20,189 nucleotides of DNA from contig JAADVB010000301.1 in NCBI GenBank assembly GCA_023334545.1, positions 1-20,189 of the forward strand, given 5' to 3'. Under the pieces are notes generated by a model. That model searched no databases and was not told the origin of the DNA. It saw only the letters and a program-made list of their open reading frames with translations. Numbering within the stretch: position 1 is the first letter of the stretch; each line of letters begins with the position of its first letter. Both the position numbers and the translations under genes were made by a program. Of the stretch, positions 129 through 20,189 are shown piece by piece. The DNA comes from Salisapilia sapeloensis (Eukaryota; Oomycota; Peronosporomycetes; Peronosporales; Salisapiliaceae).

Positions 129-1685
129 CTATTTGTGCCTGCCCTTAGATAAAGTTGTTAATGGTGTGGCAGCTCTGCACTCTTTCGTTGGATCCATGAA
201 GTTGCTGTCAGAGTTCTCTTTTTGTTTAACGTCTGGAGAAACAACGGGGGTGAAATATGCGAAAGGATATCGTTTTGCCAACGCTGCAAAAGGCGGTGGA
301 TCAATTTCGCAAGTAGAAGGCTTTGACTTATCAGGACCTGATAAAGTATGAAGACAGTCAGTCGTGCTGAAATGCTCACACTCGTTGAAGACTTTCTTGC
401 CGTCATGTTTGTCCTTGGGGTTTTGTAGCGTCTCTTGTGGTGCCACGGGTACTATCCCTTCACCTACTGTGTCCTCTTCTCGGACAGAATTGCTCCTACT
501 AGAGCTCAGTTTACTTGACGAGAGACTCGGTTGAGCATCTAAAGAAGATTTTACGTTTCCATCAACGACAAGTGGTAACTTGCCCAGTGGCTCAGTCGTA
601 GAAACCTGGAGGTTTCGATGAACGATCTTGCGTCGAACACCAGCAAGTCGAGAGGCCATTTTGATCTTCAAACTCGCCATGAGAATGAAATTATTCACAG
701 GTGTAAATGCTTCGTCGATATCCTTTTTCGTGACGACAACGTGTTCAGGTGCTTCGAGATAGATGGAGTCAATGCATGATTTGATCCATGAATGAGACTT
801 GATGTCTTCTATCGTCGCTCTTTTCTCTGGATCCTTTTCCAGCATCTTCTTTAACAGATCTAAGCTCTCTTCGTCCAGACCTTGATCAAATGAAGTTTCG
901 ATCGGATCTTCCCGAATGGAAGTCATGACTTCTGTCACGCTCTGATTCATTTGGCCGAAAGGAAGTTTCCCATTGTGAAGCAAAGCATACATGGTAACAC
1001 CAACTGCCCATATGTCCACTTTAAATGGATCAAATTCTTCTCCACTTGTGCATTCCGGTGCCTGGAAATGATAGGTGCCTTCTGTGCTCCGAATCCGCTT
1101 GCTAGGATTGTCGTCCAGCATATCTGCGACACCAAAGTCGGCTAGCTTACACGTTCCTTCCAGTGTTTGCAAAATGTTTTCTGGTTTGATGTCTCGATGG
1201 CAGATCTGGTTACTGTGTAGATACTCTAATCCGACGATCACATCTCGGATGCACATCTGGGCATGCGACCGCGACGTTTTCGTTATGAATTCATAGCAAA
1301 AATCCCGATTATTCCATTGCATGATCTGACCACCTTGTATAAGGTCTAGCACAAGGTACATCCTGTCGTTATTCGGGTTGTCAATGACTTCATGAAGCTT
1401 GATAAGATTGACATGATGAAGTTTCTTCATAATCGCCACCTCCTTTTGTACCTTTTGAAAAGCATTGCAAAGGACCATCTTGCCATTCACGCGCTTAAAC
1501 TCTCTCTTTCGTTTCAAAAAGGACTTGTTAAGCACCTTTAAAGCGTACTGATGTCCGTGCTCGTCTGAACATTGATAGACTTTCGAAAAGGTACCTTCAC
1601 CCAGAAACCCACCAACGACATAGTTATTGACTTGTCTCGGCATCCCATCGTCTGGTTCATCCGATAAAGATGCCTCGGTACTCAT
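129..1685 (-). CDS. CaMKK/SNF1-activating-type serine/threonine protein kinase
   Basis: This is a single-exon gene of 518 residues with a complete kinase domain at about residues 20-300. Visible landmarks are the glycine loop GEGTFSKV (29-36), the ATP-binding lysine of YALK (K50), HRDIKPEN (163-170), DFG (183-185) and APE (209-211). The activation loop runs STEGTYHFQAPE. The long insert after the lysine (about 51-78), the NPNNDRMYLV strand and the post-domain segment VVVTKKDIDEAF resemble CaM-kinase kinases, which phosphorylate the activation loop of AMPK/SNF1-type kinases. A substrate here is inference. A basic stretch around residues 340-355 follows the domain, then a serine-rich, probably disordered tail. 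No classical calmodulin-binding site is obvious. The start at 1685 is the first ATG of the frame. The gene is divergent from the RasGEF gene across a 670-bp spacer. Confidence 0.9.
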   Translation of the reverse strand: MSTEASLSDEPDDGMPRQVNNYVVGGFLGEGTFSKVYQCSDEHGHQYALKVLNKSFLKRKREFKRVNGKMVLCNAFQKVQKEVAIMKKLHHVNLIKLHEVIDNPNNDRMYLVLDLIQGGQIMQWNNRDFCYEFITKTSRSHAQMCIRDVIVGLEYLHSNQICHRDIKPENILQTLEGTCKLADFGVADMLDDNPSKRIRSTEGTYHFQAPECTSGEEFDPFKVDIWAVGVTMYALLHNGKLPFGQMNQSVTEVMTSIREDPIETSFDQGLDEESLDLLKKMLEKDPEKRATIEDIKSHSWIKSCIDSIYLEAPEHVVVTKKDIDEAFTPVNNFILMASLKIKMASRLAGVRRKIVHRNLQVSTTEPLGKLPLVVDGNVKSSLDAQPSLSSSKLSSSRSNSVREEDTVGEGIVPVAPQETLQNPKDKHDGKKVFNECEHFSTTDCLHTLSGPDKSKPSTCEIDPPPFAALAKRYPFAYFTPVVSPDVKQKENSDSNFMDPTKECRAATPLTTLSKGRHK

Positions 1686-2355
1686 GGTCTAGCTTCCCTT
1701 TCAACTGACAAAGAACGCGAATGGATCGATGCAAAATGCTCTCGTCTATTGTCGACTTCGTGATCTTATTCCGCCTTACCAAACCTTATTCATCTGTTCT
1801 CATCTAAATTCTACATGCTATGCGACAACCTTCTACCTACTGATGCCAGTCAATTGCACACGTAAAAACTGGTCTCGAAGAGCATGCTCGACGCCATTCG
1901 CACCTCTTGAGGATATACGTTCGTGCAACCTACCTCTTTGACTTGTCGTTTGTATACCGCTCGAAGACACCAAGTGCTGAACACGTCGTACCACCGCGAC
2001 GCTGCCAAGCCTTCTCCTTCCATCCGTCTACTATCCTTTGTGTGCACACTAGGAGCTATCACACCTTCAGCATACAAAGGTATCTACTTGCATTGCTAGC
2101 AACAACGAAGAACTGTACGAGTTTCGAAAAAGAAGCGAGTCCAGTAGCTTTCTAGCTCGAAACGCTTTCTCCCTCACGCACTTTTCACCTCACGCTTTCT
2201 TCATCTTTGCATCTAGGACGTAACTTCTTCTTACATTTGCAAAGCACTTGTACCTCGTCTACGAGTAATATCATACCTTATATCGCGTCGATCGTCATAG
2301 CGATCAAACAACTCGATTGAAAAACTTGGAAAAAAGAGGCCAGCTTAAAGACGGC
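1686..2355. promoter_or_regulatory. 670-bp divergent spacer between kinase and RasGEF gene
   Basis: No credible coding region is seen; the short open frames here have no recognisable content. The right half (about 2160-2210) is pyrimidine-rich and carries small direct repeats: ACGCTTTCT at 2162-2170 and 2192-2200, and CCTCACGC at 2172-2179 and 2188-2195. It presumably holds both promoters and 5' UTRs. I found no clear initiator element for either gene. Confidence 0.5.
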
Positions 2356-5300
2356 ATGCACGAGCAGGAAAATGACAGGCGTGAAGGCTCAAGCCAGCGC
2401 AGTTATACGACGTCATCTGCAGCATCATCTGCACCAACGATGAGCGACTCGAACATGTCTCCGTCCTTTCGAGCCTTCCTTGTCGATGACATGCCTTCCC
2501 AACGCAAGTCTCGAAATCCATCGCAGGATGCCATGACGAACTTTGCAAACTACAGCTTTGGACAGATACCGACTGCAATGCCTCCGGACGTCCAGTCCAG
2601 TCGCATGGCACGATCCAGGACCATCAGTCGAGACGACGAAATTCCTGTGCTACAAGCAGGTCGAGGGACATTCGGATCCGAGACAGATTCCGATGAAGGC
2701 GAGAATCCGATGCTCCTTCGAAATATATCTGGTGATCGACGACCACATCCGCGCATGCGTGGCGACAGTGCTCAAGCGAATTTAGATAACGACTTGCATC
2801 GTATCTCGCCGTCGCTCATCATGGGCGACGCTGCAGGTGATTTAGAAAACATTGCTCTTTTGCAAACACCAGAAGACGCTCGAGCGAACGCATTTAAAAT
2901 CGATAAAAAGAAATCGACAGTCTCGATGAAAAGCAGTCGCCTCGGTACGTCGGCCGACGGACCGTCCACTTCTGCCCATCTTTTACACCGGATGAAGTCT
3001 AGCGGACGGCAGATGTTTGGGTCGGACGTAGGCTCCTCAACGATCCCTCCGATCATTGCGAACGGTCCATCCGTCTCTCGATCTCGTAATTCTACTATCG
3101 ACTCATCCATCCTCAGTACTACACAAGACGAATCGAGTTATGGACAAAAGAGCATGATATCGAGTCACTCTGACGCTCAGATCGATCGAAAGCTGATTCA
3201 GTGTGGCTGGTTGAACAAACAATCGGACGTTTGGAAAGCTTGGAAACGACGTTTCTTCGTCTTAATCAAACGTACGAATGCTCAGACAGGAGAGTACACT
3301 GCTTCGTTACAGTACTACAAAGGTAGTAACTATGAAAAGCTACGTGGTGAGATTAACTTAAAAGACGGACCGTTGCGTGTACGTTTCGTCGATGCGTCGA
3401 TTACAAAGAAACCTTATTGCTTTGAAATTGCACGCGGTGATATCTCATTCGTATGTCAAGGCAAGAGCGATGAAGACGTTAGTGCGTGGGTTTTACATCT
3501 ACAGACACTCGCAGGTAACCGTACGAATGACGTCGTACCATCCACTACAGCATCCATCCGTACGTCCGTCATGCGCATGTCGACTTTATCCTCCGGTATG
3601 GACGATCGAAACATTCGTATCGTTGCTGAATTACGTCGTATCTTACATACGCCCAAGATGCCAGAAGCGACACAAGTGCGTGACTTTATTAAATCCTTTG
3701 ATGCACGTGCTATCGATGCCATGCGTTCTTTCCATGACTTTCAACAGTCTCTCACGCATGAAGTCATGAATGCACATGGCGATCGTATATTACATCTCCT
3801 CGAAGCATCCGGCACTTCTGTTCTTGATGATCCGCCGTCGCTTGAAACCGTTCGTATGACGATAGCGAGGCACATTGAAGAGCTCCTTTATCTCCCTCTC
3901 CAAGAGCAGATCGAGAATCAACTACGACGAACGTATCAGGAAGATGAAGCAGCGATTAGTCGCAAGGTACGATGGCTGCAAGGGAAAGATCAGACGTACT
4001 TTAACATCCCGTTGGAACATATCTCGAATAAAGAATGGCGTCGTCCTTCAAAGACACTAGCTCAAGTCACACGCGTGACACTCCCGTCGGCCAAGTACGA
4101 CGTCCTCGTCACAGCATTGCAGTCCATCCAATCGACGTACGCCGAAGAGCATGCACAACAAGAAGAACCGGTGCAACCGCTTACGACAGAAGAGATGCAG
4201 CCAATCTTTACCTACGTCCTATCGAACAGCGCGTTAGAGAATCTCTTGTCCCTTCGTGTGATACTAGCTGAGCTCAACGGCTCCTACGCGGCAGACGCAG
4301 CGCTTGATGACGGCACGGCGCTCAAGCTCTTCACAGGTGCCGTCGAGTACATCAGCAGTGTCACGATCCCTGCGGTCCTCGAAGACATCTTCAAAGACCA
4401 GACGACAGTCACGATCGATGGCAGCTGGAGGAAACTCATGGACTTTGAGCCAGAGTCGACGTATCGCTACGGTGCTGTCATCGATACGATCTCGGCGCAT
4501 GGATTGACGGCTGTAGGTAGTAATATAGCACGTGGCCATGTCCTTGTGACTGTAAACGGCCTGAACGTTGTCCTTTGGCCTTTCAACGCCATCCAAGCAC
4601 TTCTCCAAGCCTCTTGTCCTCCCCATCGTCTCGCTTTCATTCGCAACGTCACGTACTTTCGTATCCTATCGATGAACAAGTCGCTCTGGAACGTCGCACT
4701 CATGCACGCTTGTCAACGTGGTGACTTGGGTAGCGTCCAAATGCTTCTCGCGAACGGAGCGGACGTGAACTACGTTGCGCACGAGTGTTATGGCAATACA
4801 CCTCTCCACGTCGCCGTGAGTGCGAAGCACTATCGTGTCGTATCTTTCCTCTTACAACATGGAGCTATGGTCCGGACACTTGGCGAGCACGATCGTAACG
4901 TCCTTCATTTCCTCGGCTCACAATGTACCTTGCCGACGCAGATGGCAACGTCTCCATCTGACCTTGCAGCAGGACAAATCGCGCAGTTGTTAGATGCAGA
5001 CAAGCAAGGCTTATCGACTGTCGAGCGTGTCGTCATGATCATACGAAAGCTCCTTGCGTACAATACGCCGACACAGACGGTGGATGTGTATGGCTACACG
5101 CCGTTGATGCTCGTAGCTGCGAAAGGGTACATTGATGCTGTGGACATGATCGTCGAGTCGACGGAAGGACAGATCGATCTGGATGCACGTAGTTGGCAAA
5201 GAGGCATGAGCGCCTTGACATTAGCTGCTCAAGGCGGTCATGTCGAAGTCGTCGAAGCGCTGCTGGATTACGGTGCGGACGTCGATAACGCGACGTTATA

Positions 5301-7433
5301 TGGCGAGACAGCGATTCACTTTGCTGCTGCACTTGCGTCGGAAGAGCTCGTGAAGCTCTTGATTGATCACGGGTGTGAGATTGATGCCAAGACAAGAGAA
5401 GGAGTAACGCCATTGATGGTGGCTGCTGGGAAAGGGCTGGACATTGGCAAGACAGATGAGGATACTGCTTCCTCCCGTCTAGATGATACGCGTTTGATGC
5501 GGACGATCGACATATTGCTCCAGTCTGGAGTCGATCAAGACCTTGTATGCAAGCAGTACAGATGTGCACTGCACTATGCGTCCATGTACGGAGGTGCGAA
5601 TGTCTTTGATCATCTCCGGACGTACTATAACAACGGATCGGAAGAGCACATGCGGGATCTACATGGCAAATCAGCTGCTTCAGTGGAAGAGCCGCTGACG
5701 TCATGTGAGCAGCAGGCAGAACAGGCAGAAGATAGTGACGATGATGATGAAGATGATGAACGAGAGGAAAGACCATCGGATATTGCTGTGCTGCTAAGTG
5801 CGCCGCAAGACCCAGAGAGCGGCGTGACTTTGTCAGAGGAATTGGCGACGGAGAAACATGAAGGAGACATCGAGGTGATTGCCGGTACGTTTTCTGCCAT
5901 TGCCGATACGCTCATGCGATACGAACGCTATCGTGTTGAAGATGTCGATGCACTCGTGTGGTACTGTCAGTACGCTCAATGCTATCAAGACATGCTCGTC
6001 TTCCTCCAGTCTTTACTCACTCGTCACGCTGACACAACGAGACTCATTTACATTCGTCGAATGGTACTCGATGTCGTTGATAAACTCGTCGAAACGATTC
6101 AGCATCAAGTCGTAAGTGACCCGGACGTTGTAGCATCAATTGGATCCTTCTCTCGCGAACTATTTCCATTCGTGATTAAGGATGATCCTCAATGTGCCCA
6201 ATGGCTCAGTTCGTCATTACTTCCTCATTTTCTAGAAGCCTGTCGTTCCGATGTGATGCGTGACTTTCAAGTGCTTTCGTTCTGTGATGATCAGTATAGC
6301 ATGTTAATCGACTACTTGTCATATGCGCGACAGAAAGATCCGAACATGTCGTTCGTTAGTGACGAAACCTTTGCCTCTGGATCCCGACAGACGAGATTAA
6401 GGCGGCAACGATCGTTGGCTCGGAATAATAGTGTCGCGCAGAATGGAGCGTCGAAGCGTAGTGAGTCGAGCACGAAATTCGATCGGAATGGTCGAGCGGT
6501 GTTCTTGAGCATTGATCCGAACGTCCTTGCGCATCAAATTACGTTGCTACAACACTTTTTGTTCAGCAAATTAAAGGCGTCGGAGGTGCTCGTGATGAAG
6601 AAGAGTGCGACGGGTACGCCTGCGTACGACCGACTGCGAATGCTGCATAATCGCATCTCGATGTGGGTCGTCGGTCAGATCCTCCTAGGCGACGATCCAG
6701 ATCAGCGAGCGGAAACACTTGCTCACTTTATCAAGGTGACTTACTGACACATTCTTCTGCTTTGACGTTGTTTCATCCATATTTCCTTGTAGATTGCTGG
6801 TGCGTTGCTATCTCCTCTACAGAATTTAGACGGGTTCATGGCTGTCATGAACGCCACGAATGATTCGTCGATCTTTCGACTGAAGAAGACGTGGAATCGA
6901 TTGAGTGCACAGAGTCGAAACGAATGGCATGATCTGAAAAAGTATACCGAGAACGGCGCGAGGTACTGTTTCCTCATTCTACGGGACGTCGCATAGAACT
7001 AAAGGCTTATTGTATGATGCTATAGACCACTGAACAAACTGACCAAGGAAGGATCACCGCCGCTTATTCCGTACATGGGTCTCGTGCTGCAGAATATGGT
7101 TGCTGTCCATGAATTCCCAGATCGTGTCCAAGGAAACTTGATCAACTTTAAAAAAGTAAGACCGACAGGTTTCTAGACGAAGAGCCTGCTTACTTAAGAT
7201 ACATGCTAGATCCGATTCATTGGCGAGTTAGTCCGAAGGCTCATGCGCTTCCAAAAAGTGCCGTATCTACTCCCACTGGACAAGCGTATTATGGTAATTT
7301 TGCATCCCTTAATCATCTACCTGCATATACTCATACGCTACTATAGGACGTCATTTGTGCACCATTGAATCTCCCTTCTCCAGAGGCTTGCTTTGCACGA
7401 TCATTGCATCTAGAACCTCGACCAAATGCATGA
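2356..7433 (+). CDS. PH-VPS9-PDZ-like-ankyrin-RasGEF multidomain protein
   Basis: Five exons join in phase: 2356-6735, 6793-6962, 7026-7155, 7210-7293 and 7347-7433. The introns are 57, 63, 54 and 53 nt, and the protein has 1616 residues. Order: serine-rich disordered N-terminus (1-275); PH domain (about 279-387, opening CGWLNKQSDVWKAWKRRFFVL); VPS9-type Rab5-GEF region (about 459-670, with PIFTYVLSNSALENLLSLRV); PDZ-like fold (about 676-765, with ARGHVLVTVNGLNVV); about seven ankyrin repeats (777-1095, e.g. YGNTPLHVAV and GMSALTLAAQGGHVEVVEAL); acidic run (about 1126-1141); possible REM region (about 1176-1320); CDC25-type RasGEF (about 1386 to the end). The RasGEF signature is clear: SSIFRLKKTW, PPLIPYMG, LINFKK and FQKVPYLLP, the last ones split over exons 2-4. 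PH suggests membrane phosphoinositide binding; a Ras-to-Rab5 link is inference. I start at the ATG at 2356, because the frame upstream offers only TTG. It converges on the topoisomerase gene with 161 bp between stops. Confidence 0.85.
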
Positions 7434-7594: not shown

Positions 7595-10296
7595 TCAAAA
7601 ATCTTCTGGAGCTAATAAACCTCCCTTCTTCCCACGTCCTCGACCTCGGCCTCGTCCTCGACCTCTTCCACGTCCATGACCACGCTTCGTCAGCTCAATG
7701 TGCTTCATCCGACCACGCTTGAGCTCCGTCAAGTTGTTTAGAAAGTCATCACACAGTAGACATCCTTCGTACGTCGTGGTTCCATCTTTCAACGGTGACT
7801 TGTCCTTGTGGAACTCTACCTTTAGAGGCGTCGACCCACATGTATCACAGCTTTCATCAGACAGAGGCGTGATGTTGTGCAATGGTGTCGTGGACGTTTG
7901 AAACTTGACTAGTAGATTGCATGTGTTACATGCCAATTTCCAGTTCGGTTTACTCGTAACGTCCAGGACCATCGTGCCTTGACATACTTTCGTCTCTTCC
8001 TTCCCATCGTCTTCTCCAGGACAAGGAATGACCCCATTCTTGGTTAGTGAGTGCTTACACGTTGGATGGAGACACTGGTCACATCCCATCTTTCCATCGA
8101 CATTCTCAAACGGAGGATAGTTATAGCAGTAGGGACATAATGGATACGACTTGCCCATCGCCTTGGCCGAGTTACCAAGTGAAAACAAGACGAGTTCGAA
8201 CTGATCTAATGGACACTTGAGCTCCTTGTAGAGCTTGATCGTACCGTTCTGAGGTAACCCATACGTCTCGTTACAAGTAGGACAATGGAGACGTTGTGGC
8301 TTGAGCTTGACGTACTTCATGTACCGAAGACACTTGCCACACTTGGCAAGCGGTTTACCAGTCGCAGCAAGTGGAGAGAAAGTTGCCTCGAAGAGCGCAT
8401 CCATGAAGGCAATCTTGTCGGTAAAGTAACGAAACTTCTTTTCGAACAAACTAAGCGAATGCTTCAAGACATCCGTCTTAGATGCTTTCCCCTGCGCAAT
8501 CAATGTACATTGCTCTTCAATTGCAGCTCGAACACGAGGAAGCACGAGCTCCGGGTCCACTTGTTGATACCCATGCACGAGGACAATGCCTAATGCTGTC
8601 GGTACGAGCGTTCGACCGGATGACAGCTGGACGTAATTACGTTCACAAATGTTATTAATATGCGTCGGAATAGAAGCATCGGTACCAATGCCTCGTTTCT
8701 CCATGAGTCCAATCAACTCGGATTCGGTCAAGTACCCTGGAGGACTCGTCTTTCCAGCTCGAACGTTTAGTGATTTTAGCGGCAGTAACTCTCCTTCTGT
8801 AAAGCCAGGCAACGATGTATCGCTCAGCGTTTGAGACGTCAGTACTTCTGTAAACCCTTTCGACAGAACCTGATGACCGGAAACACTGAATCTTTCTCCA
8901 CCGCATCCGAACATCACTTTAGTCGCGAGTAGCTTTGCATCGGAAGAGACGGTAGCGATAAAGTAGCGAGCGATGAATTCATACAGACGATCCATATCGC
9001 CTGACAAGTCACCAGGCTGAGGTGTCCGCACTGGTGTAATAGGCGGATGGTCACCGACGTCTACACCTTTCTTCGGCCGGTTGAAACCTGCCTGCAATAG
9101 ACGTTGGACGTATGGACCCCAGTATGGGTTCGCCGTATGATGCGCAAGAGTAGACCGGATGTCGTAGCTCTCCGGATACGCCGTGCTCTCCGTTCGAGGG
9201 TACGAGATGAATCCCTGCAAGTAGAGCCTTTCGGCTATCTGCATCGTCGTAAAAGGACCCATGGCAAGAGACTTGGAAGCATGCTGCAGCAACGCTACAG
9301 TATTCAATGGCGTAGGACGAGTGCGACTTGTATTGGACTCTTTCACAGACAACACTTCGGCCATACCAGCCTCTGCGACGACACTATGGAAGGTATATGC
9401 AGCTTCTTGATCAAATAATCTAGAACGCTCCCACTCGGGACGTACGGTATGTCCATCTTTACTCAACTCTATATCCAGCGTCCAGAAAGATTCTGGCTGG
9501 AATTGCTGGATTTCGTCATGTCGATCGACACAGAAGCCAAGCGTTGGTGTCTGACAAGGACCGTAGGATACAAGCTTGGAGTCTAGATCGCCATAGCGGC
9601 CTTGGAAGTATCTAGTCTGGAAACGAGAGAATGCGACGCCGACCTTTAAATCTAATTCTTGCCGAGCATCCACTGACAAGGATTCCTATTTCAGAAATGA
9701 GACTTTTGCTAAAGAGTTTGTGATACATCGTTGTGTTACATTTTCATCGGGCTCGACCAGAGACTTGATAGCCTTTTTAATGTCACTCGGATTCACTGCA
9801 GAGAACTTGGCACGCTTGATGAGAGGCTCACCGTTGGCTTGTTTCTTCATCCGAGGCTTCACGCATTCTATCGTTTCGAAGCATATATTTTCACCTTCGC
9901 GATCACAATCCAGCCATAGGACTAGAGCATCGACATTCTTCCCTTCCGTCTGCAGTTGCCTGTATTCAGATTATCTTCGTATCGAATCGAATGGAAATGA
10001 TACATATATATCTACCTAAAGACGCCATTAGACTCCAATTTCTTCACCGTTCGAGCCGAGAAGAGATCTTGCGGATCCACGGTATCCCAATTCGAATATT
10101 CCGGTGGGAAATCGCAAGAATACATGTGACCGGTCACGGACGTCACTTTAAATGTACATGGCGAGCCCTGGAATTCACCTGGAAACTCATGAATAGGTGT
10201 CTTCCCACTGCGTGGCTTATAAGGTGACGTTGCCAGTGCCTTTGCAATTGCATCAGCAATGCTAGGCTTCTCAGCTACCATCAGCACGGTCTTCAT
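7595..10296 (-). CDS. TOP3B: DNA topoisomerase III beta (type IA)
   Basis: Three exons (10016-10296, 9740-9959, 7595-9685) with introns of 56 and 54 nt give 863 residues, close to the human enzyme's length as I recall it. The N-terminus MKTVLMVAEKPSIADAIAK and LWLDCDREGENICFE form the Toprim metal-binding domain. The catalytic tyrosine lies in GFISYPRTEST at about residue 329. The family segments DHPPITP and LMEKRGIGTDASIPTHINNI are intact. The C-terminal part has several Cys-rich zinc-ribbon-like modules (CGKC..CPTC, CPYC..CDQC, CNTC, CDTC..CLLC), then a tail of RG dipeptides. It passes one DNA strand through a transient break. Animal TOP3B also acts on RNA with TDRD3 through an RG-rich tail, so a similar role here is inference. 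Intron 1 interrupts the Toprim region. The exon frames read alone look like two broken genes, but splicing restores one enzyme. Confidence 0.95.
7631..7684 (-). repeat. RG-dipeptide coding repeat at the TOP3B C-terminus
   Basis: Eighteen codons encode RGHG followed by seven consecutive RG pairs, about residues 835-852 of the topoisomerase. Arginine and glycine codons vary (CGT, CGA, AGA with GGA, GGT, GGC, GGG), so the peptide is more regular than the DNA. This argues for selection on the peptide and against very recent DNA slippage. RG/RGG tails typically bind RNA and are targets of arginine methylation. Confidence 0.85.
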
Positions 10297-11787: not shown

Positions 11788-11893
11788 GTCCTCCCTTATC
11801 TCGTGTCCGGAATGAGGAGTCTTGCATACAAAAATATATACTCTCGTACAAGTACGATCATATTACTTGGAGCATAAGTACGAGTACTCGATT
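11788..11893. promoter_or_regulatory. 106-bp bidirectional promoter, EMC2 / TMF1-like golgin
   Basis: The whole spacer between the two ATGs is 106 bp, so the two promoters must overlap or be shared. On the minus strand CTCATTCC (bases 11816 down to 11809) fits the oomycete initiator pattern YTCANTYY and would give EMC2 a 5' UTR of about 26 nt. On the plus side there is a TATA-like AAAATATATA near 11830, about 65 bp before the golgin ATG. Motif matches this short can arise by chance. Confidence 0.45.
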
Positions 11894-14476
11894 ATGTCTT
11901 CTTCCTGGCAAGGCTGGGGATCCCGCTTTAACGTCTCCTCTTTTGTGTCCCAAGGTCTTGAACAAGTGAATAAGATTAAGGAAGATGTCGAAAAGCAATT
12001 TGATGAAGCAGTTGCTGGAAAAGTGGATGTCACGCAACAATCAAATGGACTTGATCGTGCTTCGAGCGATACACAAGCACCATTGAGTGTTGATAGTAAC
12101 GTAGCAAAGGATAGGCCGATAGAGACAATGGACGATCTGCATGTCATGACTGTATCGCCTTCGGCCAAGGCAATGGAGCCAGCGACAGCTCAGCCTCCTT
12201 TATCGGAGAATGTCCAGAGGAGGGAGACGCTACAAGCTCTTATGGCTGAAGTCTTTCGTGAAGCTCAGTCGGAGGAGGCAGTCGAACACGAACCTATCAA
12301 GACATCGGTAGCTGCAGAGGAAGAAGAAAAGGAAGAACCATCTACGACTCCAAAGGGCTCGTCAGATCCGGATGATGAGGAAGAATCCACTAGCGAAAAA
12401 GCAGAAGTGGAAGATGAAAGTGATGAGAAGTTTACAGTCGTGCAGGAAGAGAGTAGTAATGATAACAGTAACCTGGAGGATTCCACCGAAGCTCCGGAAG
12501 AGCATTTACATTACAATAGCGAAGCGAGTAGTAGTGATCATGAAGATGATCCGCCTGTAGATGACGATACAGGTCAGGTAGAAGACGAGTCTACCATCCA
12601 AGAAGACACAACCATTGTCACCTCCCATCCTCTCCAGCAAGACGATAGTGATGATCAAGCTTCTTCGCTCCAACACCAGCTCCAGCAGCGTGAAAACCAA
12701 TTAATCTCCATGTCATCCACCATCCAAGGTCTTCACGATGAGCTAGAACAGGCAAGTCAACGAGAATCTGCAGCCGTAGCTACTTCCCGCAGTCTCTCAG
12801 ACCAGCTAAAGTCATTAGAAGCAAAACTTTCGCAACGAGCTCAACAACAATCGACCCAACGCTCGAACGACATGTCTGCACTTCAGTCTGCTTTAGCTGA
12901 GAAAGAAGAGAAGCTTAAGGCTCTTTTAGACGAAGGTCAGGCACTGTCGATCAAACAATCGCAGCTAGAACAACGTGCTCGACAGCTTCGAAAGGAGAAA
13001 AGTGAGGAAGAAGAGAGACGTAAACGTGCTGAATCAAGCCTCGAACAGACATCAATGAAGCTTCAAGATATTACAAATAAGTTCAAAGCTACGGAACAAC
13101 AGAATGGACAGTATCTCCAGCGCCTTCGGAGTATGGAACAGAGTCGAGATGAACTGATGAAACGCGTCGCAACGTCTGAGAAGACGCTCGAGGAAAGAGG
13201 TACAGAAGTAGACAAGTTACGTGCGACGAATGCGAATTTATCTGCAACCAAGAGAGAGTTGGAGAAGGAATTGGAGACATTAAAGACAGCTTCGCAGTCG
13301 AATGCACAGCTGAATGCTCAGACACGAGAGCTACAGGATACGATCGATGCACTCAGTCAGAACGTACGTGACTTGGAAGAAGAGTCAAGTCGAAGAGAAG
13401 AGCAGCATCGTCGACAGGTGCAGGATTTGAAAAAGAAATGGCAAGATGCTCTTGCACGTGTTGATTCGATGGGTACGAGCATTTCAGACGCGACACAACC
13501 ATTGCTAAAGCAGATTCATACGTTCAAGGAAGAGTCTCGACAACGAGACAAGGAATGGCAAGAGAAGGAGCAAGAGTGGAGGAGTCGAGTGGATGCAGAG
13601 ACAGCAAAGGTGCATTCCATCGAGACGGAGCTTCAGGAACAGAAAGACCAGATGACAGCATGGGGGGAACAAGTCTCAGCACTTGAGAATCAAGTCGCAT
13701 CCACCTCACAAGAACTTTCGGATGCGTTAGAAGCAGTGGAGACAGCTAAGAAACTTGAACGAGATGCACGTGGACAAACGAGTGCTCTACAAGTCGACCT
13801 CGAAGGTCTCTATTCTCGTCTCGAGGAAGAGAAGAACGCTAGGATTGCAGCTGAAAAGCGACTAGAAGAGCAGACGGAATCCACTCGCAAGACATCATCG
13901 AGTGAATCGCTCTTAGAAGAAGCCAAATCGACGGAATCGGATCTTCGGAAGCAGCTCGAGTGGTACAAACGCGAGGTCAGTCGCTTGCAGTCAGCTGCAT
14001 CCACACCTCTAGATGCTTCAGGTGACGAATCGACACTTCCAAAGGTGCCGAGCTTTTCCAGGCGAGATGATCCGGCAGCACAAGCATCTATCTTGCAGCA
14101 AACGATGGATGAAGAGCCTTCCGAGTCCAGAGCTACGTCTGTGCTTGGACTCAGCCAGCTACAGCAGCGCGTTCGGCTGCGTGAAGGCGAAAGTCGGATG
14201 CTACGACAACAGCTCGCGTCTCTAGAAGCTCGACAGAAGCAGTCGGCAGAGGAGATCGTCCGATTGAGTACTCGTAACGCGTTGCTCGAGACGAACGAAA
14301 AGACGTTTGAGCAGACCAAGGCAGAGCTCGAAGAGCTCAAGCAGAAGCAGCAAGTCTTGTTGGAACTACTTGGCGAGAAGGAAGAACAGGTCGAGGAACT
14401 CCAAGAAGAAGTGAGTGAACTAAAAACTTTCTATCGGAAGCAATTAGATATGCTCGCATCTTCAGATCAAGCATGA
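11894..14476 (+). CDS. TMF1: TMF1-type golgin, long coiled-coil protein
   Basis: This is a single-exon gene. I start at the ATG at 11894, giving 860 residues, because the protein then opens SSSWQGWGSRFNVSSFVSQG, like TMF-family N-termini (aromatic and glycine-rich, then an amphipathic helix). An upstream in-frame ATG at 11822 lies inside the short shared promoter and adds an unlikely leader. Residues about 100-250 are acidic and low in complexity (E, D and S runs). From about 256 to the end the sequence is almost all heptad coiled coil rich in E, Q, K, R and L. The last about 110 residues (LREGESRMLRQQL, ELLGEKEEQVEELQEEV, LKTFYRKQLDML) match the C-terminal TMF domain, which in animals and yeast (Sgm1) binds Rab6/Ypt6-type GTPases. 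Expected role: tethering vesicles at the Golgi. Its stop is 80 bp from the convergent glucanase gene. Confidence 0.85.
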   Translation: MSSSWQGWGSRFNVSSFVSQGLEQVNKIKEDVEKQFDEAVAGKVDVTQQSNGLDRASSDTQAPLSVDSNVAKDRPIETMDDLHVMTVSPSAKAMEPATAQPPLSENVQRRETLQALMAEVFREAQSEEAVEHEPIKTSVAAEEEEKEEPSTTPKGSSDPDDEEESTSEKAEVEDESDEKFTVVQEESSNDNSNLEDSTEAPEEHLHYNSEASSSDHEDDPPVDDDTGQVEDESTIQEDTTIVTSHPLQQDDSDDQASSLQHQLQQRENQLISMSSTIQGLHDELEQASQRESAAVATSRSLSDQLKSLEAKLSQRAQQQSTQRSNDMSALQSALAEKEEKLKALLDEGQALSIKQSQLEQRARQLRKEKSEEEERRKRAESSLEQTSMKLQDITNKFKATEQQNGQYLQRLRSMEQSRDELMKRVATSEKTLEERGTEVDKLRATNANLSATKRELEKELETLKTASQSNAQLNAQTRELQDTIDALSQNVRDLEEESSRREEQHRRQVQDLKKKWQDALARVDSMGTSISDATQPLLKQIHTFKEESRQRDKEWQEKEQEWRSRVDAETAKVHSIETELQEQKDQMTAWGEQVSALENQVASTSQELSDALEAVETAKKLERDARGQTSALQVDLEGLYSRLEEEKNARIAAEKRLEEQTESTRKTSSSESLLEEAKSTESDLRKQLEWYKREVSRLQSAASTPLDASGDESTLPKVPSFSRRDDPAAQASILQQTMDEEPSESRATSVLGLSQLQQRVRLREGESRMLRQQLASLEARQKQSAEEIVRLSTRNALLETNEKTFEQTKAELEELKQKQQVLLELLGEKEEQVEELQEEVSELKTFYRKQLDMLASSDQA

Positions 14477-17324: not shown

Positions 17325-18785
17325 ATGGTCAAGAAGAAGTATCAAAGTAAGCGATTGACTGTGCACAAGAAGCACAAGATTGCCAAGAAAGTCAAGGAGC
17401 ATAATCGGAAAGAACGCAAGAAGGAACGTCTTGGACACTCGAAAAAACAAAAGGACCCAGGCATTCCCAATAGCTGGCCTTTCAAGGAAGAGCTTCTAGT
17501 CCAAGCAGAGCAAGCTCGTTTGGCAGAGAAAGCCAGTCAAGAAGAAGCAAAGGAACTGCGGAAGAAGGAGAAGAAGGAACGTAAATTGAAAGAACGAGAG
17601 CAGCTCCAGGCCGATGCGTCCGGTGGAGATATCGCTCTGACGCCGCAATACGTCTTCCTCCAAGCACGTAAAGAGCTCAAGGTTAGTGTACAGAAAGCAG
17701 ACATCGTCTTCATCGTTCTCGATGCAAGAGACCCTCAAGGCTCTCGCTCGTTATCGCTTGAAGACGGTTTGATTGGCAAAGCAAACAAAAAGGTCGTTCT
17801 ATTGCTCAACAAGATCGACTTGGTGCCGTCGGACGTCGCTCAAAAGTGGCTCTCGTATCTTCGTCGCTTCCACCCGACGATCCCTGTGCGTGCTCTGAAT
17901 CACAGCCCGGTCGACTTGTCCGGCAAGAAGAAGCCGAACAAGCAAGCCAAGTACCAAGCAGCTCTCCAAGAGCGATCACAGCAGCTCAAGGATCTACGCG
18001 ACAATGGTGATCTACGTGCTCTCCGCCACTTTCTCGATGACCTGACGAAAGCACAGGACGGTAAACAGATCCACGCTGTATTCGTCGGCTATCCTAACGT
18101 CGGGAAAAGCACGCTCCTTAACTCGCTCAAGAAGCGGAATGTCTCGGAAGCATCGTCTGCGCCGCACACGACAAAGAGAATTGTCGAAGTGCACTACAAT
18201 CAGACTATCACGTTGCTCGATGCGCCTTCTCTAGATGCCTCTTTGAGCGACGAGTCTGCGGTCATCACTCGCCACGGCATCGCTAACGTCTTCTTAGATG
18301 ACCCTGTTCCAGCCGTGCAAGCGCTACTAGAACGTTGCGATGGTAGCAACCTCATGCATACGTTGCAACTACCTCTATTCCGTAGTCATGAAGAGTTCCT
18401 ATCGAAACTAGCCATTCGTCGTGGCCTTAAGAGGAAAGGTGGTGATCCAGACCTCTTGGCTGCAGCTCGATTTTTCCTTCGAGCTCTTGGTAACGGAACG
18501 TTGGAGACGGCATGCAATCCACCTAGTAAATCCAAGGCTCGATTCGAGTTACCAGAGTGGTACACTGAGCTTCCGTTGGCTCAATTAACCGAATTTGAGT
18601 CCTTGCTCTTTGCTTCGAATGAAAAGAAGGAGCATGATCCGAAACGTACGATCGTGATTAACTACATCGCACCGAACCATGCTGTTGGTGACACGACTGA
18701 ATTTGACGCTGTCATGGGCCAACGACCAGAAGACGACGGCTTAACTTCAGAAGATGAAGAGCAGGATGAAGACATGGACGAATAA
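17325..18785 (+). CDS. GNL3: Nucleostemin/GNL3-family nucleolar GTPase
   Basis: This is a single-exon gene of 486 residues. The lysine/arginine-rich N-terminus (1-45, opening VKKKYQSKRLTVHKKHKIAK) matches the Grn1-type N-terminal domain and should act as a nucleolar localisation signal. A charged helix follows (about 55-95). The GTPase motifs come in circularly permuted order: DARDP (133-137), G4 NKID (162-165), then G1 GYPNVGKS (255-262), a G2 threonine near 282-283, and G3 DAPS (299-302). This order defines the YlqF/YawG group (Nug1, Grn1, GNL3, GNL3L, Lsg1), which works in 60S ribosomal subunit assembly and export. The RRGLKRKGGDPDLLAAARFF segment matches the helical region after the GTPase in GNL3/GNL3L. 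The C-terminus is acidic (EDEEQDEDMDE). Whether it is closer to GNL3 or GNL3L is uncertain. The ATG at 17325 has a purine at -3 (ACCATGG). Confidence 0.92.
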   Translation: MVKKKYQSKRLTVHKKHKIAKKVKEHNRKERKKERLGHSKKQKDPGIPNSWPFKEELLVQAEQARLAEKASQEEAKELRKKEKKERKLKEREQLQADASGGDIALTPQYVFLQARKELKVSVQKADIVFIVLDARDPQGSRSLSLEDGLIGKANKKVVLLLNKIDLVPSDVAQKWLSYLRRFHPTIPVRALNHSPVDLSGKKKPNKQAKYQAALQERSQQLKDLRDNGDLRALRHFLDDLTKAQDGKQIHAVFVGYPNVGKSTLLNSLKKRNVSEASSAPHTTKRIVEVHYNQTITLLDAPSLDASLSDESAVITRHGIANVFLDDPVPAVQALLERCDGSNLMHTLQLPLFRSHEEFLSKLAIRRGLKRKGGDPDLLAAARFFLRALGNGTLETACNPPSKSKARFELPEWYTELPLAQLTEFESLLFASNEKKEHDPKRTIVINYIAPNHAVGDTTEFDAVMGQRPEDDGLTSEDEEQDEDMDE

Positions 18786-18874: not shown

Positions 18875-19486
18875 GAAGTCGATGGCACCGCACCGATACA
18901 TCTACTCGACAGCTAAACTCTTTTGTTGAAGATCTCAATAGGAATGAACTAAACTGCTTCATTTTGTATGCCAAGATAAACTTCTAAGGGTACAAAGCGT
19001 CAAGCCTATGACTTTCGGTCATGCAAGGAGTAGAATCTTACTGTTCTTTAGCCTTGTAATTGGAATGCCGAGACTTTAATATAGCGTCTGTAGCTGGCAC
19101 CTGCCGCAAGGAATTAAATGAAGTCTTTGATCCATACATCCCACGGCTATTTGCACAGCCAAATGTAGCAATGGATTTGACACCAGAACTATACTTGCCA
19201 TATTCAGTCGTGAAGTAGTCACAGTGATGCAAGGTCAAATGCCATTATAGCCGGTCAAATAAAGCTCTCACAGGTATAACCGTACTGATGGAGATGTTCA
19301 TAGTAAATAGCTTTTATGTATTACACTCACAACGTAATGAAATGAAAGTGGACGTGATATGAATATGTGAAGTGGAATAAACAAGTATATTAACTTCGTC
19401 TTATCGACACTTCTGTCAACGTAAACAACTTGAGACGATGATGTCAACGTAAGCAAATTTGAATTCAAAAGATGCTCTTTTGTGTA

Positions 19487-19500
19487 TCATTTCGCGATTT
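19487..19500 (+). promoter_or_regulatory. Initiator plus flanking element (Inr-FPR-like)
   Basis: TCATTTCGCGATTT matches the combined oomycete core promoter pattern TCATTYYNCAWTTT at all but one position (G for A). It ends two bases before the ATG at 19503, which would make the 5' UTR only about 14 nt. The true start codon could be further in, but the next Met in frame directly follows the first. Confidence 0.45.
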
Positions 19501-19502
19501 GT

Positions 19503-20189
19503 ATGATGGAAGTGAAGGATATTGGACCGTATATGCTCAAAAAGGAGCGTCAGACCGGTGACGTGAACGTCTCGGAGCTCACAAACCTGCTGCAGGGTGG
19601 GGAGAAACGGAATGCTCGTCGAAAGGAGTTCCTGAGCATGCTGAAGAAGCACCCAGTACTCTCGGATCGAGACATGATGTTCCGAAACCACACGGAGCGA
19701 TACAATACTGGTCTGAAGAAATCCTACCACTATGTCAAGCTGCTGAGCGATGAGAATATCACCGACAAGGATGATAAGCAATTGCTCTACAGCCTCATCG
19801 GTGAGCCCCTACCCATCGATGTCCATCGAGCGATGTTCACGCCGACGCTCGAGAACCAAGCCGACGATGAGCAGCAGAAAAAGTGGCTGCCGCTCGCCTA
19901 CAACTACAACATCCTCGGTGCATACGCCCAGACGGAGCTCGGTCATGGCTCCAACGTCCAAGGTATCGAGACCACGGCGACCTACGACAAGAAGACGCAA
20001 GAGTTTGAGATTAACTCGCCGACGCTCACAAGCCGCAAGTGGTGGCCAGGTGGACTCGGCAAAACGGACAACTACGCCATCGTCCATGCTCGTCTGTATA
20101 TCGACGGCAAGGACCATGGTGTCCAGGCTTTCCTCGTCCAACTGCGATCGTTGAAAGACCACCAGCCTCTTCCTGGCATCGAAGTCGGC
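19503..20189 (+). CDS. Peroxisomal acyl-CoA oxidase, 5' part
   Basis: An open frame of 229 codons runs to the window edge without a stop. The ATG at 19503 is the first Met after an in-frame TGA at 19431. The N-terminal helical region (KRNARRKEFLSMLKKHP) is followed by the acyl-CoA oxidase middle domain: GAYAQTELGHGSNVQGIETT (FAD and substrate binding), then INSPTLTSRKWWPGGLGK, AIVHARLYIDGK and LKDHQPLPGIEVG. These follow plant and animal ACOX1-type enzymes closely. The enzyme oxidises acyl-CoA to trans-2-enoyl-CoA, passing electrons to oxygen as H2O2, the first step of peroxisomal beta-oxidation. The catalytic Glu and any C-terminal peroxisome signal lie outside the window. Codons are richer in C/G-ending forms (CTC, CTG, ATC, AAG, TAC) than in neighbouring genes, which usually goes with high expression. 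Confidence 0.93.
   Translation, partial: MMEVKDIGPYMLKKERQTGDVNVSELTNLLQGGEKRNARRKEFLSMLKKHPVLSDRDMMFRNHTERYNTGLKKSYHYVKLLSDENITDKDDKQLLYSLIGEPLPIDVHRAMFTPTLENQADDEQQKKWLPLAYNYNILGAYAQTELGHGSNVQGIETTATYDKKTQEFEINSPTLTSRKWWPGGLGKTDNYAIVHARLYIDGKDHGVQAFLVQLRSLKDHQPLPGIEVG

Follow-up and report, generated by a model that had tools for sequence, protein, structure and literature searches.

A predicted multidomain RasGEF of the oomycete Salisapilia sapeloensis carrying a VPS9-fold unit devoid of the catalytic tyrosine

A stretch of 20,189 nucleotides from the oomycete Salisapilia sapeloensis, referred to as the window, harbours a gene (2356..7433, forward strand) which encodes a protein of 1616 residues composed of a PH domain, a helical bundle with a VPS9 fold, a PDZ domain, a block of ankyrin repeats and a C-terminal REM-CDC25 unit (Table 1), which confirms the initial observation. 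The reading we favour, with moderate confidence, is that of an oomycete cytosolic multidomain RasGEF, in which the VPS9 unit most likely represents a docking or regulatory module for Rab5-family GTPases with weak or no exchange activity. According to this scheme, the REM-CDC25 unit, which displays the expected fold and the catalytic Glu, would exchange the nucleotide of a Ras-family GTPase, and the PH and PDZ domains together with the ankyrin block (a protein-binding scaffold) would, from the nature of these domains, bring the protein to a membrane and into a complex. The helical-bundle/VPS9 unit, folded and conserved but deprived of its catalytic Tyr, would bind a Rab5-family GTPase, and such a docking would tie Ras activation to endosomal membranes.

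Table 1. Gene structure, domains and key residues of the Salisapilia sapeloensis protein (window positions).
Feature	Position	Strand	Size or basis
Gene exons (stop included)	2356-6735, 6793-6962, 7026-7155, 7210-7293, 7347-7433	+
Intron 1	6736..6792	+	57 bp
Intron 2	6963..7025	+	63 bp
Intron 3	7156..7209	+	54 bp
Intron 4	7294..7346	+	53 bp
N-terminal tail, residues 1-280	2356..3195	+	no best-listed Pfam stretch within
PH domain, residues 281-384	3196..3507	+	Pfam PF00169, E 4.2e-8
Helical bundle and VPS9-fold domain, residues 415-680	3598..4395	+
Glu612, position of catalytic Asp313 of Rabex-5	4189..4191	+	alignment
Thr654, position of catalytic Tyr354 of Rabex-5	4315..4317	+	alignment
PDZ domain, residues about 679-772	4390..4671	+
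Ankyrin repeat block, residues about 773-1090	4672..5625	+	Pfam Ank_2, E 3.7e-37
Acidic low-complexity linker, residues about 1091-1156	5626..5823	+	sequence; low conservation
REM domain, residues about 1157-1339	5824..6372	+	mapped from orthologue P0047
CDC25 catalytic domain, residues about 1382-1616, over five exons	6499..7430	+	Pfam RasGEF, E 1.6e-33
Catalytic helical-hairpin stretch, residues 1531-1551	7066..7128	+	alignment

A search with residues 270-790 retrieved 47 relatives, and all those deposited with an organism name come from species that we take to be oomycetes. Their precomputed Pfam calls comprise both VPS9 and RasGEF in 32 proteins, VPS9 only in 11, RasGEF only in three and neither in one; judging from their length, some relatives without a RasGEF call are probably partial proteins. 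Three relatives (P0031, P0083 and P0094) are deposited under unrelated names such as 'Uracil phosphoribosyltransferase' or 'alternate phospholipase', perhaps owing to fused gene models or transferred names. The S. sapeloensis assembly contains at least three RasGEF matches, two of them of the fused kind. The second fused gene, L004:3383-7363 on contig C49 of the assembly (G000), has no introns; its ORF of 1326 residues, whose stop ends at 7363, repeats the window gene's order of PH, VPS9 (sub-threshold, at 23.1 bits for a cut-off of 27), ankyrin and RasGEF. The initial annotation had announced two exchange-factor folds on one chain and suggested looking for the same order in other oomycetes; both points are borne out by these relatives and by the paralogue.

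Searching with the C49 paralogue gave another 47 relatives, which form a second clade (clade B) distributed in Phytophthora, Pythium and downy mildews; RasGEF is called in 29 of them and VPS9 in none. In a tree built from window residues 276-840 for 35 hand-picked rows out of 96 aligned, the group of the window protein (clade A) and that of the paralogue split as deep clades (100/100). The window protein falls inside a 14-row set of Peronosporales/Pythium type (96/94) with a weak closer placement (84/57), and long branches lead to the C49 paralogue and three other rows. No named non-oomycete protein with both VPS9 and RasGEF occurred among the matches of three protein searches, which were based on shared short exact words, with the best ~7990 candidates scored in two of them and some matches lacking an organism name. 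For four matches outside the family (P0096-P0099), REM and RasGEF are called, without VPS9.

The RasGEF half is complete. Its Pfam score reaches 116.5 bits for a cut-off of 23.1, and a CDC25 profile matches RasGRF1 (2ije) with an E value of 9.8e-43, which identifies a CDC25 domain. The REM domain was assigned by mapping from a structure model of the orthologue P0047, in which residues 649-1150 align over REM and CDC25 with the chains of RasGRP2, Rlf, Cdc25 and SOS1; Pfam RasGEF_N gave no match in the window protein, nor did the sequence profile hit a REM domain in the PDB. A protein lacking REM was considered and rejected in view of the P0047 model. Residue Glu1546 occupies what we take to be the position of Glu942 of SOS, where clade A shows Glu in 36 and Asp in one of the 37 rows with letters (48 in total) and clade B shows Glu in 30 of 30 (48 in total). 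The well-formed RasGEF domain expected after splicing has thus held up in full. At the presumed position of SOS Thr935, a Gln occurs in all rows with letters (36/36 in clade A, 30/30 in clade B), which makes even Ras uncertain as a substrate; the predicted substrate could be any member of the Ras family. In C113, the third RasGEF match, a Lys occupies this position and the Glu is kept, as read by eye, and this site therefore appears variable in S. sapeloensis. SOS1, RasGRF1, RasGRP2 and yeast-type Cdc25 have the REM-CDC25 unit in common with the window protein but differ by the residue at the Thr935 site, and to our knowledge none of them contains a VPS9 domain, a PDZ domain or an ankyrin block.

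Of the profile searches suggested by the initial annotation, those for PH, ankyrin and RasGEF gave confident matches, whereas RasGEF_N failed and VPS9 stayed at 20.0 bits, under the curated cut-off of 27; 43 of the 47 relatives carry a precomputed PF02204 call. The helical bundle and the VPS9 fold typical of a VPS9 Rab5-family GEF are both present. Mutation of the conserved residues 313, 317, 354 and 357 hampers exchange (cited in PMC8773251). The window protein lacks both the catalytic Asp (Asp313) and the catalytic Tyr (Tyr354), retains the equivalent of Pro317 and shows a Lys at position 357. Within clade A, the Asp is found in 45 of the 47 rows with letters, a Glu replacing it in the window protein and in P0046 from Albugo, and the Pro in 47 of 47. 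At the Tyr354 position, a Tyr occurs in none of the 48 clade A rows and in none of the 46 clade B rows with letters, these site counts being taken from a single MAFFT alignment (96 rows), in which the Tyr column borders a loop and the rows, including strains and close species, are not independent. The whole segment is free of Tyr in 46 of the 48 clade A rows; the two others are P0043 and the window protein, whose Tyr lies far upstream. Among the 46 clade B rows, 43 display a Tyr at the segment start, at a good distance from the site. The VPS9 site of clade B exhibits Asp in 8 and Glu in 35 of the 47 rows with letters, and Pro in none. The Pro is lost in the C49 paralogue too. The exchange domain of VPS9 type originally proposed is present as a fold, with a site where Tyr never occurs and with Glu612 in place of the Asp.

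The loss of the catalytic Tyr makes a binding module with weak or no exchange the most likely role of the unit. Measured as mean majority share in clade A, conservation amounts to 0.81 for PDZ, 0.78 for CDC25, 0.75 for VPS9 and for PH, 0.73 for ankyrin, 0.68 for the helical bundle and 0.62 for REM, and falls to 0.57 over residues 1091-1165, which comprise the linker between the ankyrin block and REM. The VPS9 and PDZ segments are thus about as conserved as CDC25, so that the VPS9 module is not apparently decaying; conservation without the Tyr fits a module retained for binding or for an altered exchange.

A true dual exchange factor, in which VPS9 would activate a Rab5-family and REM-CDC25 a Ras-family GTPase, was the original proposal for this gene and now appears doubtful. 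Both folds do occur on a single chain, the VPS9 segment is well conserved, and the persistence of Asp and Pro in clade A, apart from the Asp of the window and one Albugo protein, argues for some residual exchange activity. A low VPS9 activity has also been reported despite the replacement of Pro317 and Glu351 (PMC4379102), but that protein retained both the Asp and the Tyr, whereas the family studied here has no Tyr at position 354 and the window protein has in addition Glu612 for Asp and the Lys at 357. The proposed Ras-Rab5 coupling by dual exchange is accordingly sustained for the two folds on one chain and for the complete RasGEF, and weakened by the missing VPS9 catalytic residues. Its extension to an oomycete-wide dual exchange factor with a VPS9 site re-engineered to work without the Tyr, which would set Ras signalling and early endosome identity together, is likewise unlikely. 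A third explanation, that the VPS9 fold is a structural spacer or an intrachain regulator of REM-CDC25 with no Rab involved, seems rather improbable: it agrees with the sub-threshold Pfam score and with clade B, where no relative has a VPS9 call, the Pro has vanished and the Asp is rare, a loss compatible with either a structural or a binding role, but it hardly accounts for the retention of Asp and Pro in clade A.

That the architecture is a gene-model artefact, with separate genes fused through wrong splicing, is practically ruled out, because exon 1 already extends from the PH domain into CDC25, the paralogue is one intronless ORF with the identical domain order, and most relatives possess both Pfam calls. 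Exon 1 lies in an ORF (2317-6747, forward strand) of 1476 open codons with the ATG of the gene model at 2356, all four introns are of the GT...AG type and measure 53 to 63 bp, and the stop codon ends at 7433. The relatives are contiguous across junctions 1 to 4 (16 letters in 16 columns) in 32/38, 35/36, 36/37 and 30/39 of the clade A rows with letters, in agreement with the four short introns and the 1616-residue product of the first description.

The fusion gene is adjoined on the opposite strand by a complete protein kinase ORF (129-1685, reverse strand, ATG to stop, Pkinase E 1.6e-57). Other ORFs of the window encode a DNA topoisomerase 3-beta-like protein (7595-9679, reverse strand) with a zinc ribbon and a C-terminal tail rich in Gly and Arg, an ORF which begins within the topoisomerase domain and likely has an upstream exon, a coiled-coil protein with a C-terminal domain of the TMF TATA-binding type (11822-14476, forward, E 1.3e-23), a GTPase of the GNL3L/Grn1 type (17325-18785, forward), and the start of an acyl-CoA oxidase gene (19482-20189, forward) that continues past the window end.

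As a control, the VPS9 site was compared with the six further VPS9 matches of the genome. Read by eye, Asp, Pro and Tyr are kept in five (C100, C380, C22, C2 and C52); the sixth, C4, a weak sub-threshold match (21.8 bits), keeps the Asp but neither Pro nor Tyr. The C380 gene (L043:11-2594) is a PX-VPS9 ORF with the three residues in place; its VPS9 domain is, by its sequence, related to the helical-bundle/VPS9 region of the fusion (28% identity over 211 columns, with 35 gaps). It was discarded as a third fusion since the ORF stops after VPS9 and the contig contains no RasGEF match. The ORF upstream of it has a CUE-like match of 19.6 bits, slightly below the cut-off of 21.1, and four tRNA genes (2716-2792, 3825-3897, 4638-4712 and 6299-6373 of L043; two Ile, the copies of which look nearly identical, and two Asn) occur within 3.8 kb downstream. 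A P-loop screen of 30 loci fetched out of 66 matches revealed P-loop and effector segments of GTPases that, from their motifs, we take to be of Ras type at C22, C279 and C420 and of Rab5 type at C60 and C215, which makes these GTPases candidate substrates. Searching those 30 loci for Ras/Rab5 effector-loop motifs gave no match.

Among known systems, VARP (ANKRD27) and the VPS9-ankyrin proteins of the stramenopiles Ectocarpus and Aureococcus show VPS9 followed by ankyrin, as here (PMC6032885), and the window protein differs from them by its additional RasGEF, PH and PDZ domains. An orthology with Varp was rejected, since the retromer motif CHPLCxCxxC of VARP, described as holozoan (PMC6032885), is absent from the window protein. 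Compared with Rabex-5 and AtVps9a, the window protein has lost the equivalent of Tyr354, replaced that of Asp313 by Glu and gained an attached RasGEF. GAPVD1/RME-6 also unites a Ras regulator and VPS9 in one chain (PMC6032885), but its RasGAP switches Ras off, whereas a RasGEF switches it on; no RasGAP catalytic domain matched the window protein in Pfam up to E 1, the PH region giving a non-significant PH_RASGAP match (E 0.18). Alsin (ALS2) similarly combines two exchange-factor folds, one of them VPS9 (PMC8773251), but with DH/PH instead of CDC25, a C-terminal VPS9, and RCC1-like and MORN repeats; its Rac1 activity is disputed in cells (PMC8773251). RIN1-3 link Ras to Rab5, as may be the case here, but bind Ras through a Ras-association domain, no activation of Ras being described in that survey (PMC6032885). 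GAPVD1/RME-6 and alsin are closer precedents than the proteins listed in the initial annotation, which omitted both.

In the survey of VPS9 evolution, stramenopiles are described as having VPS9-ankyrin proteins of independent origin and a VPS9 clade of their own, and VPS9 proteins with RasGAP, PH, or PDZ plus PX are also recorded (PMC6032885); the terms RasGEF, CDC25, Phytophthora, Saprolegnia, Pythium and oomycete do not occur in its main text. Unusual domain combinations are a known trait of oomycetes (PMC3681718). The parts of the protein are already named in public records, e.g., a Plasmopara entry called 'putative pleckstrin domain, VPS9 domain, ras-like guanine nucleotide exchange factor', and no dedicated paper on the VPS9-RasGEF architecture was found among the papers listed by a literature search, judged by titles and abstract openings. 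Multidomain regulators of Ras and Rab5 are known (GAPVD1, RIN), and alsin associates VPS9 with another exchange fold; the window protein adds a predicted Ras-activating version.

With two of the at least three RasGEF matches of the assembly being fused, this family may be a main Ras input of these organisms. The VPS9 unit kept without the catalytic Tyr in Peronosporales, Albugo and Saprolegniales offers a natural test of the role of this residue. If the coupling is real, oomycetes would have hard-wired Ras activation to endosomal Rab identity, a connection that animals establish with other proteins (RIN, GAPVD1).
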